Assembly (NCBI GenBank): GCA_903842365.1
Contig: CAIMLU010000004.1
Coordinates: 1 to 44,830, forward strand
DNA: 44,830 bases
Origin: an uncultured bacterium
GTDB taxonomy: Bacteria > Patescibacteriota > Minisyncoccia > Phycocordibacterales > UBA6065
Direction: 5' to 3'
Shown one piece after another: positions 13,407 to 44,171 of this stretch. The stretch's first letter is position 1, and every line of letters begins with the position of its first letter. The notes below the pieces were generated by a model. The model made no database searches. It was not told the origin of the DNA and saw only the letters and a list, made by a program, of their open reading frames with translations. Made by a program: the position numbers and the translations under genes.

Positions 13407-15908
13407 ATGACCATGAAGGATGTTTTTAACAAATCAATTGCCGGTGCGCTTGTAGTTGCATTCATCGTGCCAGCGAGTTTCGCCTTCATGCCTAAAAAAG
13501 CGGAAGCTCAGCAGGGAAAAATAAGTGCTTGTGTTGCAGGTTTACTTACAGCAATAGGTGTATCAACGCCAGCATTCCTAAAAGACACCGTAGGGGTCTC
13601 CACAGGACACGGAGGTTCTGTTGTTGATGCAACAGACACTGGAAATTCAGGCGGAATTTCTTTCAACTCCTGTATCCTTCAACCCCTTGCAAAAATAATG
13701 ATTATTACACTCATCCGCCAGATCGGAGCGAGTGTTGTTGATTGGGTTAACAATGGTTTTGAAGGCAAACCGTCCTTTGTCACTGATTTTGAAGGAACCT
13801 TGCGCGATGCTGCTGATAATGCCCTCGGTGAATTTATCGAAGGATCAGAATTAGGTTGGCTCTGTTCAAATTTTTCATTCCAAATCCGCATCGCCCTTGC
13901 GATGAAATATAGCAAACCATGGAAAAGAAAGGCTCAGTGTACCCTTACAAAAATCAATCAAAATATTGATAATTTTGTTCAAAATAACGGAGGTGCTGGT
14001 TGGGATAACTGGTTAGAAGTGACCTCGGAACCTCAAAATAACTGGATCGGCGCTTATTATATGGCCGACTCAGAACTTGCAGCCAGGATGATGAAAGCAA
14101 CGGACATCAAAGAAAAACGCATCACCATGGGCGCGGGTTTTCTTGATTTTGAAACGTGTGACGATTGGGAAACAGACACAGAGGCAATGAACCGCGCATA
14201 TGGTACTCAGGGAGGAACATCTAACACAGTAAACACTAATACGTTTGGTACTCAGGGAGGAACATTTAACACAGTAAACACTAATACGTTTGGTACTCAG
14301 GGAGGAACATCTAACGCAGCAAACACTAATACATTCAATCTTGAACCAGCTTTTGCCCCCGCTGATTTAAGAACAAACGATGAGGTTTTAAATACTAAAT
14401 TTGAGACAACATTACTACCATCATCAAAACCAAAGTGTAAGAAATCATCGACAAAGACCCCAGGAACCATCATCGCAGGAAAATTGAATAGCACCTTTAT
14501 GCAAGGCGATATTCAAGCCGCAGTAGCGCAGGAAATTGATGACGTCATTGCTGCAACCCTGAACCAAATCGCAAAAAAAATGATGACAGGAGCAATGGGG
14601 CTTCTTGGCCTCTCAAAAAAGAAAGGTGGGTCAAATGTAAACTATGGTAAAAAATATGAAGCATTGTATTGGGGAGGACAAACACCCACATCAACAGAGG
14701 CTGCCGATACTGGCGCACAATCAGAAATGGATGCATACCGAAATGAAACGAGTGATTTCAATGCTACCCAGAACTTAATAAACACAAATTCTGACACCGT
14801 TAAAATCAACCAGTATACAGACCAAAAAGCACAAGAAGCGTACAACCAACAACAAGAACAGCTCAACAACATAACAGACCAGTTCACTGGCGTCGTCGAT
14901 GCATCAGAACGAAATGTTGCCCTTGGCAAGACAGCGACACAATCAACAACAGATGCTTCTGCAATGAACGCGGTAAACGGGATCACCACCGAAGGGTCAA
15001 ACACAGTATCAAAACCAGCATCAACCCACCAAGTCACAGCAGACGAAGCTCTTTATAGTGGAAACGCTGGTGACATTCGTCCATGGTGGCAAGTTGACCT
15101 TGGAAGAGTAGAGAAAATAAAAGAGGTTCGTATATACCCAGCTCAAAATAAGCCCGTAAACGTAACACTCGAGACATTTACCATCACTCTTTCAAACAAC
15201 CCAACTGATGCCTCGGCAAGCCCTACTTGGACAAGTGACGTCATTACAGGAACCGCAAACTATCCAATCAAAATTGCAATCCCAGCAACGGGCGCGTGGA
15301 GGTATGCCCGTATAACGAAAAACGCAAAAAAGGACACGTCATGCTACAACAACCCAGCATCATATCAATCTGCCGCATGTTATCACGCACTTGAATTGGC
15401 AGAGGTAGAGGTTATTGTTCCACTTGAAACCACAAACCTATTCCCAGGAACAGCCTCAACAAGTACAAGCTCTGGCACAAACACCGTAAATGGTGATTCA
15501 GGGAAACTTGTGTGGACCACAAATCAAAACAATATCCAGATTTCAAAAGGTAACCTAGTGTCGTTCAACCAAACACTTTCTGGGGCAAATAAATCAAACC
15601 TTACCATTACCACAACGCTCTACGAAGGAACAAAAAATATCACCTTTGGATCGCTTTTTAGCGTCCTAACAGTAGGGTGGGGCAATGGATCAACAGAGCG
15701 AAACTCAATGACGTTTGATAGCACAATGACCCACGGTGCACTCAAATTAACCAATGTATCAACAACAAACGCATCGCAATTTTTCCTCAAATACAACGGC
15801 CTTACCAAAACCTCTACAAAATCAGGAACATACCGAATGGAAGCGATTGTTACCGATGGGGCGGGGAATAACCTTGGCACACTCTCGACACAGTTTGTGA
15901 TACAATAA
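13407..15908 (+). CDS. Large secreted protein with a discoidin (F5/8 type C) domain
   Basis: An 833-residue exported protein. A signal peptide (AGALVVAFIVPASFAFMPKKAEA) is followed by a Cys-containing N-terminal region with a hydrophobic stretch near residue 90. A 15-residue repeat occurs three times at about 266-310 (GTQGGTSNTVNTNTF). A helical Gln/Asn-rich part precedes a discoidin-like domain at about 502-670: NVALGKTATQST at its start, WWQVDLGRVEKIKEVRIYP in the core, and YARI later. Discoidin domains bind carbohydrates or lipids on surfaces. The C-terminal about 160 residues are Thr/Ser/Asn-rich and Ig-like. Its place directly before the VirB6-like gene (six bases) suggests a surface-exposed component or substrate of the apparatus, perhaps for host attachment; this is inference. 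Confidence 0.85.
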   Translation: MTMKDVFNKSIAGALVVAFIVPASFAFMPKKAEAQQGKISACVAGLLTAIGVSTPAFLKDTVGVSTGHGGSVVDATDTGNSGGISFNSCILQPLAKIMIITLIRQIGASVVDWVNNGFEGKPSFVTDFEGTLRDAADNALGEFIEGSELGWLCSNFSFQIRIALAMKYSKPWKRKAQCTLTKINQNIDNFVQNNGGAGWDNWLEVTSEPQNNWIGAYYMADSELAARMMKATDIKEKRITMGAGFLDFETCDDWETDTEAMNRAYGTQGGTSNTVNTNTFGTQGGTFNTVNTNTFGTQGGTSNAANTNTFNLEPAFAPADLRTNDEVLNTKFETTLLPSSKPKCKKSSTKTPGTIIAGKLNSTFMQGDIQAAVAQEIDDVIAATLNQIAKKMMTGAMGLLGLSKKKGGSNVNYGKKYEALYWGGQTPTSTEAADTGAQSEMDAYRNETSDFNATQNLINTNSDTVKINQYTDQKAQEAYNQQQEQLNNITDQFTGVVDASERNVALGKTATQSTTDASAMNAVNGITTEGSNTVSKPASTHQVTADEALYSGNAGDIRPWWQVDLGRVEKIKEVRIYPAQNKPVNVTLETFTITLSNNPTDASASPTWTSDVITGTANYPIKIAIPATGAWRYARITKNAKKDTSCYNNPASYQSAACYHALELAEVEVIVPLETTNLFPGTASTSTSSGTNTVNGDSGKLVWTTNQNNIQISKGNLVSFNQTLSGANKSNLTITTTLYEGTKNITFGSLFSVLTVGWGNGSTERNSMTFDSTMTHGALKLTNVSTTNASQFFLKYNGLTKTSTKSGTYRMEAIVTDGAGNNLGTLSTQFVIQ
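14202..14336 (+). repeat. Three tandem 45-bp in-frame repeats
   Basis: Units at 14202-14246, 14247-14291 and 14292-14336, starting GGTACTCAGGGAGGAACAT. The first two differ at one visible base; the third has drifted at a few positions. Each encodes 15 residues, so copy-number change would keep the reading frame. Confidence 0.95.
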
Positions 15909-24799: not shown

Positions 24800-26020
24800 A
24801 TGAAAAAAATTCTCATTGGTATAAGCATTTTGTTGTGCGTCGGTATGGTGATATGGTTTTTCTTCTTTCAAGGTAATGTTGAACAAAACAATACCCCCAC
24901 AAAGAGTGATACCTCTAGTAGCATATTCCCTTTTGGGGAAGGAAACATTGTAAAAACAAAGCCTCAAAAACCAAAAACATCTGATATTAGTGAAGTAAAT
25001 AAGACACCTGATCAGGAATACCTTCCAATACTCAGAAAAATTTGGGATAAACCAGTCGCTGGTGGTGTTATTTTTGACGACGGAAAGTCTACTAAAATCA
25101 GATTCGTTGAACGCTCAACGGGCCATATTTATGAGACGGAGAAGTACTTACCAAAAACAACACGTCTCTCGAATACAACCATACCTCGTGTTGGGGAGGC
25201 ATTGTGGCAAAACGATGGATCAAAAGTTCTCTTGCGTTATTTACGTGACGACAACGAAACGATTCGAACCTTTTCTGGAATTGTGCCAACCACGACAAAT
25301 AGCACGATAGATGGTGTTTTTCTAGCGGACAATATTCAATCACCAGCACTTTTCAAAGACAAGATTGCCTACATAACAACCTCGGTTGATGGGGCAACTG
25401 TTATAACGGCGAACATGGATGGGACTAAAAAAACAGCCATCTTTACCTCACCCTCAAACGAATGGGAGATTTCATGGACTAATCCAAACTCATTAGCCTT
25501 ATGGAGTTCACCAAGCATTGTTTCACCTGGGGCTTTATATTCTCTTAACACAACGAAAGGAACGTATAACCGTGTGGCCTCTGAGGTATATGGAGGTGAG
25601 GGTAAGCTAAACAAAAATGGTAGTTTAATGCTCATTACAGGATCAAAAAACAGTGGATTAGGTACAGCGGTATTCGATGTAAAGAGTGGTGATAAAAAAG
25701 TTTTGGATATAGGAACCGTGGTTGATAAGTGTACATGGAGCCCAATCGCCACATCAACCGTATACTGTGCAGTTCCAGATACATTAACACAAGGCAATTA
25801 CCCAGACGATTGGTATCAAGGACTTATATCAACAGGGGACAGTGTGTGGCGAATTGATACAATAACAGGCTCAAAGGAAAGAATCTTTAGCCCAACAAAA
25901 ACTGAACTTGAAGATCCAATTGATGTAACACATCTTACTATAAACAACAAAGGTGATACGTTGTTGTTTATGAACAAAAAGGACCAGACGCTGTGGTCCT
26001 ACGACATATACGCATTTTAA
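24800..26020 (+). CDS. Membrane-anchored putative beta-propeller protein
   Basis: A 406-residue protein with one N-terminal transmembrane helix (ILIGISILLCVGMVIWFFFF), a disordered Ser/Thr/Lys/Pro linker, then about 320 residues of repeated short strands. Recurrent units such as GEALWQNDGSKVLLRYLRDD, NEWEISWTNPNSLALWSS and TVVDKCTWSPIATSTVYCAV resemble TolB or WD40-like blades (a strand followed by a W-containing turn). The blade count is not certain. It starts eight bases after the VirB2-like gene and ends the locus. A scaffold for extracellular partners is the usual role of such folds; the specific role is unknown. Confidence 0.78.
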   Translation: MKKILIGISILLCVGMVIWFFFFQGNVEQNNTPTKSDTSSSIFPFGEGNIVKTKPQKPKTSDISEVNKTPDQEYLPILRKIWDKPVAGGVIFDDGKSTKIRFVERSTGHIYETEKYLPKTTRLSNTTIPRVGEALWQNDGSKVLLRYLRDDNETIRTFSGIVPTTTNSTIDGVFLADNIQSPALFKDKIAYITTSVDGATVITANMDGTKKTAIFTSPSNEWEISWTNPNSLALWSSPSIVSPGALYSLNTTKGTYNRVASEVYGGEGKLNKNGSLMLITGSKNSGLGTAVFDVKSGDKKVLDIGTVVDKCTWSPIATSTVYCAVPDTLTQGNYPDDWYQGLISTGDSVWRIDTITGSKERIFSPTKTELEDPIDVTHLTINNKGDTLLFMNKKDQTLWSYDIYAF

Positions 26021-26075
26021 ATCACAACAAAATACCCCTGGCACCAATTGGTGCCAGGGGTATTTTGTTGTGATT
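26020..26075. terminator. 56-nt perfect palindrome, bidirectional terminator
   Basis: Bases 26020-26047 and 26048-26075 are perfect reverse complements. The core TACCCCTGGCACC is flanked by A- and T-rich segments. It lies between the convergent propeller gene and yidC, and starts on the last base of the former's stop codon. Confidence 0.92.
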
Positions 26076-30144: not shown

Positions 30145-30399
30145 ATGAATGGTATTGGTGATTATTTAAAGAGATACGTAGGGATTCATAGTGCTCTTGA
30201 ACAAAAAAAAAATATTTTTAGCGGTGTTGTTTTTGATGTGTTGCATGTTGATATTTCAAAAAAAACAATTCAATTTAAAGACACGACCGTTTCTATTTCT
30301 GGTTTAAATTCAAGCGAGCGAACTCTTCTGTTCTTAAAGAAGAAAAACCTCATTGAAGGGTGTTTGAAAAAAGGATTGGTTATTATTGAAATACGATAA
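30145..30399 (+). CDS. Small basic protein, possible DciA-like (DUF721)
   Basis: An 84-residue protein directly after dnaN. The pattern is an N-terminal helix (IGDYLKRYVGIHSALEQKKNIF), a strand pair (KTIQFKDTTVSISGLNSSERTLLFLKKKNLIEGC) and a short final strand (GLVIIEIR). The strand-then-helix part resembles the DUF721/DciA fold, in which exposed strands precede a helix with hydrophobic spacing. DciA helps load the replicative helicase in bacteria lacking DnaC. Position beside dnaN fits this. The match is weak and based on pattern only, so the function stays tentative. Confidence 0.6.
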   Translation: MNGIGDYLKRYVGIHSALEQKKNIFSGVVFDVLHVDISKKTIQFKDTTVSISGLNSSERTLLFLKKKNLIEGCLKKGLVIIEIR

Positions 30400-30443
30400 A
30401 AAAATCTCCCCTAAGGGAGATTTTTTTATCGTATTTCAATAAT
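30382..30443. terminator. Bidirectional terminator, 29-bp perfect arms through coding ends
   Basis: Arms 30382-30410 and 30415-30443 are perfect reverse complements around CTAA. The left arm contains the last six codons (stop included) of the 30145 gene. The right arm contains the stop and last codons of the penicillin-binding protein gene. Confidence 0.92.
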
Positions 30444-37200: not shown

Positions 37201-37330
37201 TCTTTTAATCTGACGGGTGACCTAATTCTTCTGAGTGAAGCTGTTGGTGATTGAAAGCGTTCCTGTTGTGCGAGGTTTCTTTGGGCGAATCTTATATATG
37301 TTGTCTGGGTGATGTTAAACCAAGTTTGGT

Positions 37331-39668: not shown

Positions 39669-39678
39669 ATTCTGACCA

Positions 39679-39813
39679 GCGAGGAGTGTGGGCGAGCATC
39701 CTCGCACACAACGTCAGAGCGACCAAAATCTCTTGAGCAAAGCGATTAGAGATTGGAAGTACTCTTGTGGTGCGACGTCAGAACAAATTGGTTTGTTCTT
39801 CGAATTCCACAAG
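39679..39813. repeat. Hairpin-rich repeat element, copy A
   Basis: Three stems in a row: GCGAGGA/TCCTCGC (39679-39705), CCAAAATCTC/GAGATTGG (39723-39756), and CTTGTGG/CCACAAG (39764-39813) enclosing AGAACAAA/TTTGTTCT (39780-39799). The segment 39719-39772 recurs at 43946-44000 with few differences. It lies between the lipoprotein terminator and tsaE. An open frame crossing it in the tsaE frame is not credible protein. Confidence 0.8.
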
Positions 39814-39848
39814 CGTCAGCCCAAGGTGGTTTATTGCCTATATTTATG

Positions 39849-43439: not shown

Positions 43440-43466
43440 GCCACATACGCACTCAAAACCTCTTTG

Positions 43467-43500
43467 GGTAGAGCGTCTCCCTTTTAAAGGGTGGGTCTGG
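43467..43500 (+). pseudogene. Decayed tandem copy of tRNA-Lys
   Basis: Thirty-four bases match the D-arm to variable-loop part of the tRNA 72 bases downstream. GGTAGAGC and the anticodon-loop core CTCCCTTTTAA are kept, with a few substitutions and a two-base gap. No acceptor stem or T-arm can be formed, so it is not functional. The 72-base offset equals about one tRNA length, pointing to an old tandem duplication. Confidence 0.75.
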
Positions 43501-43521: not shown

Positions 43522-43594
43522 GCGCCCTTAGCTCAGTTGGTAGAGCATCTCCCTTTTAAGGAGTGGGTCGTTGGTTCGATTCCAACAGGGCGCA
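43522..43594 (+). tRNA. tRNA-Lys (anticodon TTT)
   Basis: The cloverleaf folds well: acceptor GCGCCCT/AGGGCGC, D-stem GCTC/GAGC, anticodon stem TCTCC/GGAGT (outer U-U mismatch), anticodon loop CTTTTAA giving TTT, T-stem GTTGG/CCAAC with TTCGATT, discriminator A. CCA is not encoded and must be added enzymatically. The 3' end takes part in an inverted repeat with sequence downstream. Confidence 0.97.
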
Positions 43595-43645
43595 CAAACG
43601 CGATCCAAGAAAACCTGCACTGCTGCAGGTTTTTGCGTTTGTGCG
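43591..43645 (+). terminator. Terminator of tRNA-Lys with outer stem into the tRNA
   Basis: The inner hairpin AAAACCTGCA/TGCAGGTTTT (43610-43633) is a normal terminator. An outer perfect 11-bp stem, CGCACAAACGC (43591-43601) with GCGTTTGTGCG (43635-43645), includes the last tRNA bases, so it would compete with acceptor-stem folding in the precursor. Confidence 0.8.
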
Positions 43646-44050
43646 AACCGGAGCGATGTTTGTTCAGTAGAACAAACCGCGAGGTAGGGCCGAGGAAATT
43701 CTGGTTCGACAGAACCAGAATTATCCGTGGCCACAAATCATATGGTGGTTTTCGGTTGTGCTGTGCGAGCCGGAGGCCGACGGGCCGAGGCGGGTGAGTT
43801 CGGGATAAGGGACCCGAACGTAAAACCTTCTTGAGACGGTACTCCGTCCAAAAGGTGTACTGACCATGTAATGGTCGCGAGATTTTTCAGCAGAAAAATA
43901 CTTGTGACCACATCCATGCGAGCCAGGGCCGAGGAATTTTCGAGCGCGACCAAAATTTCTTGAGCGATAGCGATTAGAAATTGGAAGTACTCCTGTGGTG
44001 GCGGCGAGAAAATATCCGTGGCCACAAACTGCCAGTGGCAGTCTTTTTTC
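43646..44050. repeat. Intergenic array of hairpins and short repeated modules (copy B included)
   Basis: No credible gene. Hairpins: GTTTGTTC/GAACAAAC (43658-43677), AATTCTGGTTC/GAACCAGAATT (43697-43722), GTTCGGG/CCCGAAC (about 43798-43820), GACCAT/ATGGTC (43862-43876), TTTTTC/GAAAAA near 43885, CCAAAATTTC/GAAATTGG (43950-43984), and CTGCCA/TGGCAG (about 44028-44042) followed by six T. Recurrent modules are GGGCCGAGG (three times: near 43687, 43783 and 43926) and ATCCGTGGCCACAAA (43723 and 44014). Bases 43946-44000 repeat 39719-39772. Confidence 0.75.
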
Positions 44051-44060
44051 CCCCAAACCC

Positions 44061-44088: not shown

Positions 44089-44171
44089 CCCTCCCCGGAT
44101 GAACCTTGTTGTGCATTTTTGCACGACATTGTCTCTGTTCTTCCACAACACAATCAGACTGCCTTAGTTAA

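Follow-up and report, generated by a model that had tools for sequence, protein, structure and literature searches.

A hairpin repeat at two sites of the window

The window analysed here comprises the 44,830 nucleotides of contig CAIMLU010000004.1, from an uncultured bacterium of the order Phycocordibacterales. An initial annotation had pointed to a hairpin of about 54 bases that occurs twice with a paired base change in its stem, and had suggested selection on the fold and a MITE-like element, a regulatory RNA element or a new repeat family. We therefore asked what this repeat is and how it came to be dispersed.

The copies lie exactly where they had been reported, at 39719-39772 (54 nt) and 43946-44000 (55 nt), both on the + strand, as are their parts and host repeats described below. 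Four substitutions and a one-base insertion separate them, and a 92-nt query from copy 2 matched copy 1 with an E value of 1.7e-15, far beyond chance for such a length. The paired exchange of C-G for T-A was confirmed: copy 1 has the stem AATCTC/GAGATT and copy 2 the stem AATTTC/GAAATT. A second TGTGG/CCACA stem, said to follow both copies, was not conserved: CCACA occurred within 45 nt downstream in 8 of 143 copies compared with a background of 3.6%, and TGTGG is part of the element's own conserved tail.

In copy 1, the net unit CGAC...GTGGTG spans 39720-39772 and is preceded by a G. Its 5' foot CGAC (39720-39723), identified by conservation of the alignment columns, stands opposite GAAG (39756-39759), and the 5' arm AATCTC (39727-39732) pairs with the 3' arm GAGATT (39749-39754) as a covarying helix. 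The apical loop TTGAGCAAAGCGATTA (39733-39748) has the layout common to most copies, a GC/GC mini-hairpin between GA and GA, and this loop is a site of nested insertion in other copies. The conserved tail TACTCTTGTGGTG (39760-39772) forms the end of the element, which is equally abrupt in unrelated contexts and is confirmed by empty sites. Copy 2 (net unit 43947-44000) has the covarying arms AATTTC (43954-43959) and GAAATT (43977-43982), the apical loop TTGAGCGATAGCGATTA (43960-43976) and the tail TACTCCTGTGGTG (43988-44000). Beyond a two-base bulge, CC/GG pairs close the stems of both window copies at the base.

Each copy interrupts another repeat. Flank comparison placed copy 1 in a larger repeat at approximately 39670-39830, broken at CGTCAGAG^CGACGTCAG (the caret marks the point of insertion) and present also on contigs C63 and C52 of the same genome. 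Copy 2 splits the host hairpin ATTTTC-GAGCG^...GCGGCGA-GAAAAT (43936-44013), which is uninterrupted on contig C41.

Distribution of the family

Besides the two window copies, the genome of origin (G000; 813 kb in 66 contigs) held five other full-length copies. Two of these adjoin each other head to tail on C63, and C52, C38 and C65 carry a single copy each, which brings the full-length total to seven. One further copy, on C10, was broken up. The sequence of copy 1 recurs in both tandem copies on C63 and on C52. A covariance model built from 26 diverse copies detected the element (E<=0.01) in 115 of 397 genomes of the order, with up to 55 copies per genome, and in one genome outside the order from a phylum sample of 379. 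The exact 24-mer GAAATTGGAAGTACTCYTGTGGTG was found in GTDB only in records of Parcubacteria, Patescibacteria, Lloydbacteria and Nomurabacteria and in one other bacterial record. With copies numbering in the hundreds, the proposal of a new repeat family was borne out, and it was clearly not the case that the genome held two copies only or that further homologues lacked paired changes.

A weak HMM match at 37219-37269 of the window fell within a pilB-like gene and was taken as chance. Likewise, the sole 18-mer match among viral contigs, considered as a sign of viral spread, sits within a phage gene and was attributed to chance.

This is apparently a family of mobile hairpins of about 54 bases, in one group of tiny Parcubacteria, that has not been described previously. 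An incomplete literature search found no paper linking REPs to Patescibacteria or MITEs to the candidate phyla radiation, which is weak evidence of novelty. Few mobile units with exactly mapped ends are as small as this element, which is widespread among reduced genomes that are commonly regarded as streamlined.

Conserved anatomy and covariation of the stem

Throughout the family the unit reads (G)CGAC, stem, apical loop, return stem, GAAG and the tail TACTCYTGTGGTG, for a length of 53-59 nt. Its ends are CGAC and GTGGTG on one strand, or CACCAC and GTCG on the other. Stems have 6-9 pairs and are AT-rich, and the outer C-G pair at the foot was either kept or altered on both sides in 109 of 110 alignment rows. 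The usual apex is TTA-GA-GC-(3 nt)-GC-GA-TTA, and many copies contain GCGAAGC, which as DNA forms an extraordinarily stable mini-hairpin. This mini-hairpin has been used in PMC4686876 among others. In other copies, such as L059 and L116 (CGACC..GGGAG), the GC pairs were swapped for other pairs while the GA flanks were kept, and still others had a plain longer stem instead, as in L054 with ACTCGC/GCGAGT.

Selection on the fold, as initially suggested, was supported by compensatory changes in excess of both shuffled and slid controls. The covariation score was 0.213 compared with 0.101 for shuffled alignments, a value reached in none of 500 shuffles, and slid controls scored 0.128 at most; the alignment of 110 distinct rows had been fitted to the named structure, so that these scores are biased towards it. 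When helices were counted independently of the alignment, from the ends of each copy alone, 102 of the 110 distinct cores had perfect Watson-Crick pairing over at least 6 bp, and these helices comprised 31 different sequences. The stem therefore stays paired as its sequence changes. Folding energies of single copies were only modestly better than those of shuffles (DNA z scores of -0.6 and -2.3 for the window copies), and for this reason the structural argument rests on covariation. As the stems are AT-rich, energy by itself would have missed the structure.

Variant units (L057, L056, L046 and L048-L050) were also seen, which carry a small hairpin, GGAAGTGCCnnnnGGC or GGAAGTCCCTTTAGGG, in place of the tail. 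Some of these sit at GGAAG^TACTC of another unit.

Empty sites, tandem arrays and nesting

Filled sites were compared with uninterrupted counterparts. The empty site of window copy 2 is the continuous ATTTTCGAGCG|ACGGCGAGAAAAT on C41 (locus L008), and a second pair is provided by a filled locus in G014 (L058) and an empty one in G097 (L034). In G288 and G309, a different dispersed hairpin, CATGGCTGATTTTTAAGGAG^CGAAGCGACTATAAAAATCGCC, holds several copies in its loop, and uninterrupted repeats of that hairpin align without a gap across the junction. In G238 and G342, copies fill two positions of a larger element with AGGACTTACGCAAACGG and CCGTTTGCGTAAGTCCT at its ends. Between sister species, the copy at G288:C87:2639 was absent from the flank-aligned matching site of G364. 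In every clear case, insertion added the unit with at most one ambiguous base, no longer duplication and no consistent deletion. The net insertion in G353 appeared one base shorter than elsewhere, probably because the loops compared are not true ancestors. The list of 79 filled/empty matches includes self matches at tandem junctions, and 79 is not the number of empty sites.

Copies were also found within and beside one another. In G032 (L025), a copy with a ATTGTTTTC stem lies within the loop of another copy, whose stem is TAAATTTC, at GAG^CGAAGCGA; the loop of one unit in L057 holds two others, and more nesting was present in L046 and L180. Tandem junctions read GTGGTG|CGACC on C63 and elsewhere, and GTGGTA|CGAC in G180. 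Judged from these genome comparisons, the data show that the element moves as a precise unit, from CGAC to GTGGTG or GTGGTA, with a one-base ambiguity.

Two host repeats were also noted. The element bounded by AGGACTTACGCAAACGG and CCGTTTGCGTAAGTCCT (L180-L184; G342 and G238) is palindromic, has many copies and is often filled by the 54-nt unit. The separate dispersed hairpin CATGGCTGATTTTTAAGGAGCGAAGCGACTATAAAAATCGCCACCCTGTG in genus g64 (L227-L233 of G288, and L237-L239) is a target of the element and has the same GAGCGAAGCGA apex.

Target preference

With tandem copies included, G was found at position -1 in 71% of sites and at -3 in 59%, and the next base after the unit was C in 64%. With tandems left out, GAG^ preceded 31 of 121 sites (26%), compared with a background of 2%. 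Inverted repeats spanning the junction were also over-represented at the sites. A flanking stem score of at least 8 was obtained for 12.7% of 118 sites and for 2.0% of nearby positions (p about 2e-8), and a score of at least 7 for 14.4% of sites and 3.4% of nearby control positions. About half of the 15 strongest loop cases belong to one repeat type of G353, and the independent cases are therefore fewer than this count. One target was the loop of a terminator (L019).

Proposed movement and the search for the mover

The repeat is probably a REP-like, non-autonomous mobile hairpin, the folded single strand of which would be moved in trans by a putative enzyme; this reading draws on sequence comparison throughout. 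The precise ends, lack of duplication, 5' target, loop preference and stem compensation together suggest that the folded strand is the moving unit and often the target, and the loop preference in particular points to a folded single strand as target. We propose that a strand-transfer enzyme acting in trans recognises the element as a folded single strand, which would most likely be DNA exposed during replication or uptake, and that the CGAC/GAAG foot, the GA-GC-loop-GC-GA apex and the tail would serve as recognition and cleavage signals, by analogy with IS200/IS605 ends and REPs. The comparisons show that the unit inserts preferentially after (G)AG and into hairpin loops, its own included, so that copies stack in tandem and nest, and that its stem stays paired as the sequence changes. 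The covariation and insertion data do not separate DNA from RNA as the folded form.

Candidate movers were sought in carrier genomes, and no responsible enzyme was found. Y1_Tnp genes were present in 18 of 20 high-copy genomes, but Y1_Tnp was undetected at E<=10 in seven of eight further carriers, including G180, which is 100% complete and carries 25 copies. In a set of 98 genomes, Y1 was weakly associated with the element, being present in 19 of 26 carriers and 39 of 72 non-carriers (p=0.11), and only two of about 50 fetched Y1 loci held a copy of the element, roughly 1.1 and 2.4 kb away. The genome of origin gave a single Y1_Tnp match, a fragment with an internal TAG at G000:C29:25728-25886. 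Reverse transcriptase (PF00078) was missing from seven of 12 carriers, G180, G288 and G342 among them. No larger coding element with the same two ends was found among all tails lacking a preceding hairpin foot (1.08 Mb). As both Y1 and reverse transcriptase were absent from many carriers and Y1 loci were not flanked by the repeat, the mover may be another enzyme, a Y1 gene that is gained and lost, or a host process. We tentatively raise the possibility that movement is independent of Y1 and directed at loops, with another enzyme or a host replication or uptake factor inserting folded single-stranded units and so nesting hairpins across the order.

We considered whether the element might instead be a conventional REP whose mover is a REP-associated tyrosine transposase (RAYT, a Y1 HUH enzyme). 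Its size, intergenic placement, duplication-free insertion and hairpin with a conserved foot all fit, as do the Y1_Tnp genes of the high-copy genomes. In tandem or circular form, moreover, the GTGG of the tail would occupy the place of the REP guide, 2 nt 5' of the following hairpin (PMC6006769). Single copies, however, have no GTAG or GTGG tag 5' of the hairpin, the base of the stem is not G+C-rich, and the Y1 distribution given above is that of a gene missing from most of the further carriers tested, not significantly associated with the element and rarely near it. We therefore rejected RAYT as an obligate mover and general explanation, and consider this origin unlikely.

Somewhat less probable still is passive spread, in which template switching or homologous recombination between hairpins would copy loops into loops without a dedicated enzyme. 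Nested and tandem copies are indeed frequent, and the loop sequence GAG-CGAAGCGA is often common to target and element, but the same precise ends recur in many unrelated contexts that share only a G, such as ACGGATG^TAGTTCG and GCAGCAAG^CTGTTCC.

In favour of a functional RNA element that spread via duplication, acting as a terminator, mRNA stabiliser or regulator, are the covarying stem, a GA-rich apex and internal loop of a type common in RNA too, and the many copies near genes, the nearest gene on the 5' side being a median of 158 nt away. Orientation to neighbouring genes was mixed, however, which argues against a cis-regulatory RNA: the 99 intergenic copies comprised 38 in the -- arrangement, 26 ++, 18 -+ and 17 +-, with copies equally frequent between divergent and between convergent genes. 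Insertion into terminator and other loops, and nesting, fit no fixed cis function, and the element matched no Rfam family. The regulatory RNA element initially suggested is thus improbable. Movement via an RNA copy, by reverse splicing or reverse transcription into hairpin loops, is very improbable: loop targeting without duplication does resemble insertion into folded RNA or single strands, but the unit is much too short for a self-splicing intron, and the absence of PF00078 from seven of 12 carriers means that reverse transcriptase is not a general mover.

Relation to known repeats

The element, which we favour as a REP-like hairpin moved in trans, acts like a REP but fails the definitions of both GTAG and CGTC REPs. 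Its likeness to GTAG REPs and REPINs (RAYT, TnpA-REP) lies in a short, extragenic, gene-free hairpin with many copies, a foot motif beside the stem and no long target duplication. GTAG REPs are defined by a resident RAYT and by a GT[AG]G guide 5' of a G+C-rich stem, which we applied as GT[AG]G 0-2 nt 5' of the stem and G or C in three of the first four pairs. In contrast, the element has a 5' foot of (G)CGAC in nearly all copies with GTGG in the 3' tail only, its stems are of the type AATTTC/GAAATT or TTGTTTTCT/AGAAAACAA, a Y1 gene is missing from many carriers, and Y1 loci are not flanked by the repeat. It differs further in its 13-nt conserved 3' tail and in units that are single, head-to-tail or nested rather than in inverted pairs.

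Like the CGTC-tagged REPs (Di Nocera 2013, PMC3733652), the element is a small hairpin with no known dedicated transposase, but it has neither the CGTC tag nor the CCA-like tail that mark the two ends of those REPs. Some REPs are also reported to lie within other palindromes, and how CGTC REPs move is a stated open question (PMC3733652). As the targets of the element include multi-copy repeats, its filled and empty sites can be read directly, and the movement of transposase-less REPs thereby becomes testable by genome comparison. A repeat of the general CGTC-REP kind (GATCCCGTT..AACGGGATGAC) in G353 hosts the element in its loop. The very small dispersed repeats of cyanobacteria (Elhai 2008) are reportedly about 21-27 bp; they share with the element a size of tens of base pairs, mobility and placement within other repeats, but belong to a different phylum. 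Transposase-less CGTC REPs, REPs within palindromes and these cyanobacterial mini-repeats are the closest conceptual precedents.

Hairpins of IS200/IS605 are recognised as single strands and insert after a short target without duplication (PMC6006769), and both IS200/IS605 and REP transposases act on folded single-strand DNA (PMC6006769, PMC8266576). The element likewise has a short conserved 5' target and no duplication, but differs from IS200/IS605 ends and mini-elements in having one hairpin per unit and no coding relative with its ends that we could find. The label of MITE-like element holds in part, in that the unit is short, gene-free and mobile. It lacks the terminal inverted repeats of MITEs (15-30 bp), as its stem is internal and CGAC and GTGGTG are not mutually inverted, and the target-site duplications looked for in the flanks were not seen, with filled/empty comparisons showing at most 1 nt and none of 2 nt or longer.

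Genomic context and additional repeats

Among 131 copies with enough flank, 99 lay outside open reading frames of at least 80 aa, the others overlapping mechanically called frames. Judged against real genes, both window copies are intergenic, the first upstream of a tsaE-like gene and the second between tRNA-Lys and a gene that starts near 44166 (gene names were read from translations). A strand bias following GC skew was considered and found unconvincing (66 vs 45 copies). In the Rfam search of the window, tRNA was the only match.

Other repeats were noted in the same window. Other nested hairpins, with the motifs GCCGAGGAA...ATCCGTGGCCACA and TGTGCGAGCCGGAG..., are dense at 43600-44060; relatives lie on C41 and C46, and G014 (L056) contains a block resembling this one. 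They represent at least one additional dispersed hairpin family. Positions 43460-43497 are 84% identical to part of tRNA-Lys (43532-43569), 72 bases upstream of that part, and are a possible degenerate tRNA copy, with no ARAGORN or Rfam call. Perfect inverted repeats occur at 26020-26075 (28 bp, no spacer) and 30382-30443 (29 bp, 4-base spacer). Finally, a 45-bp unit, a multiple of three in length, is repeated three times in tandem at 14201-14335, the repeats being 93-98% alike.
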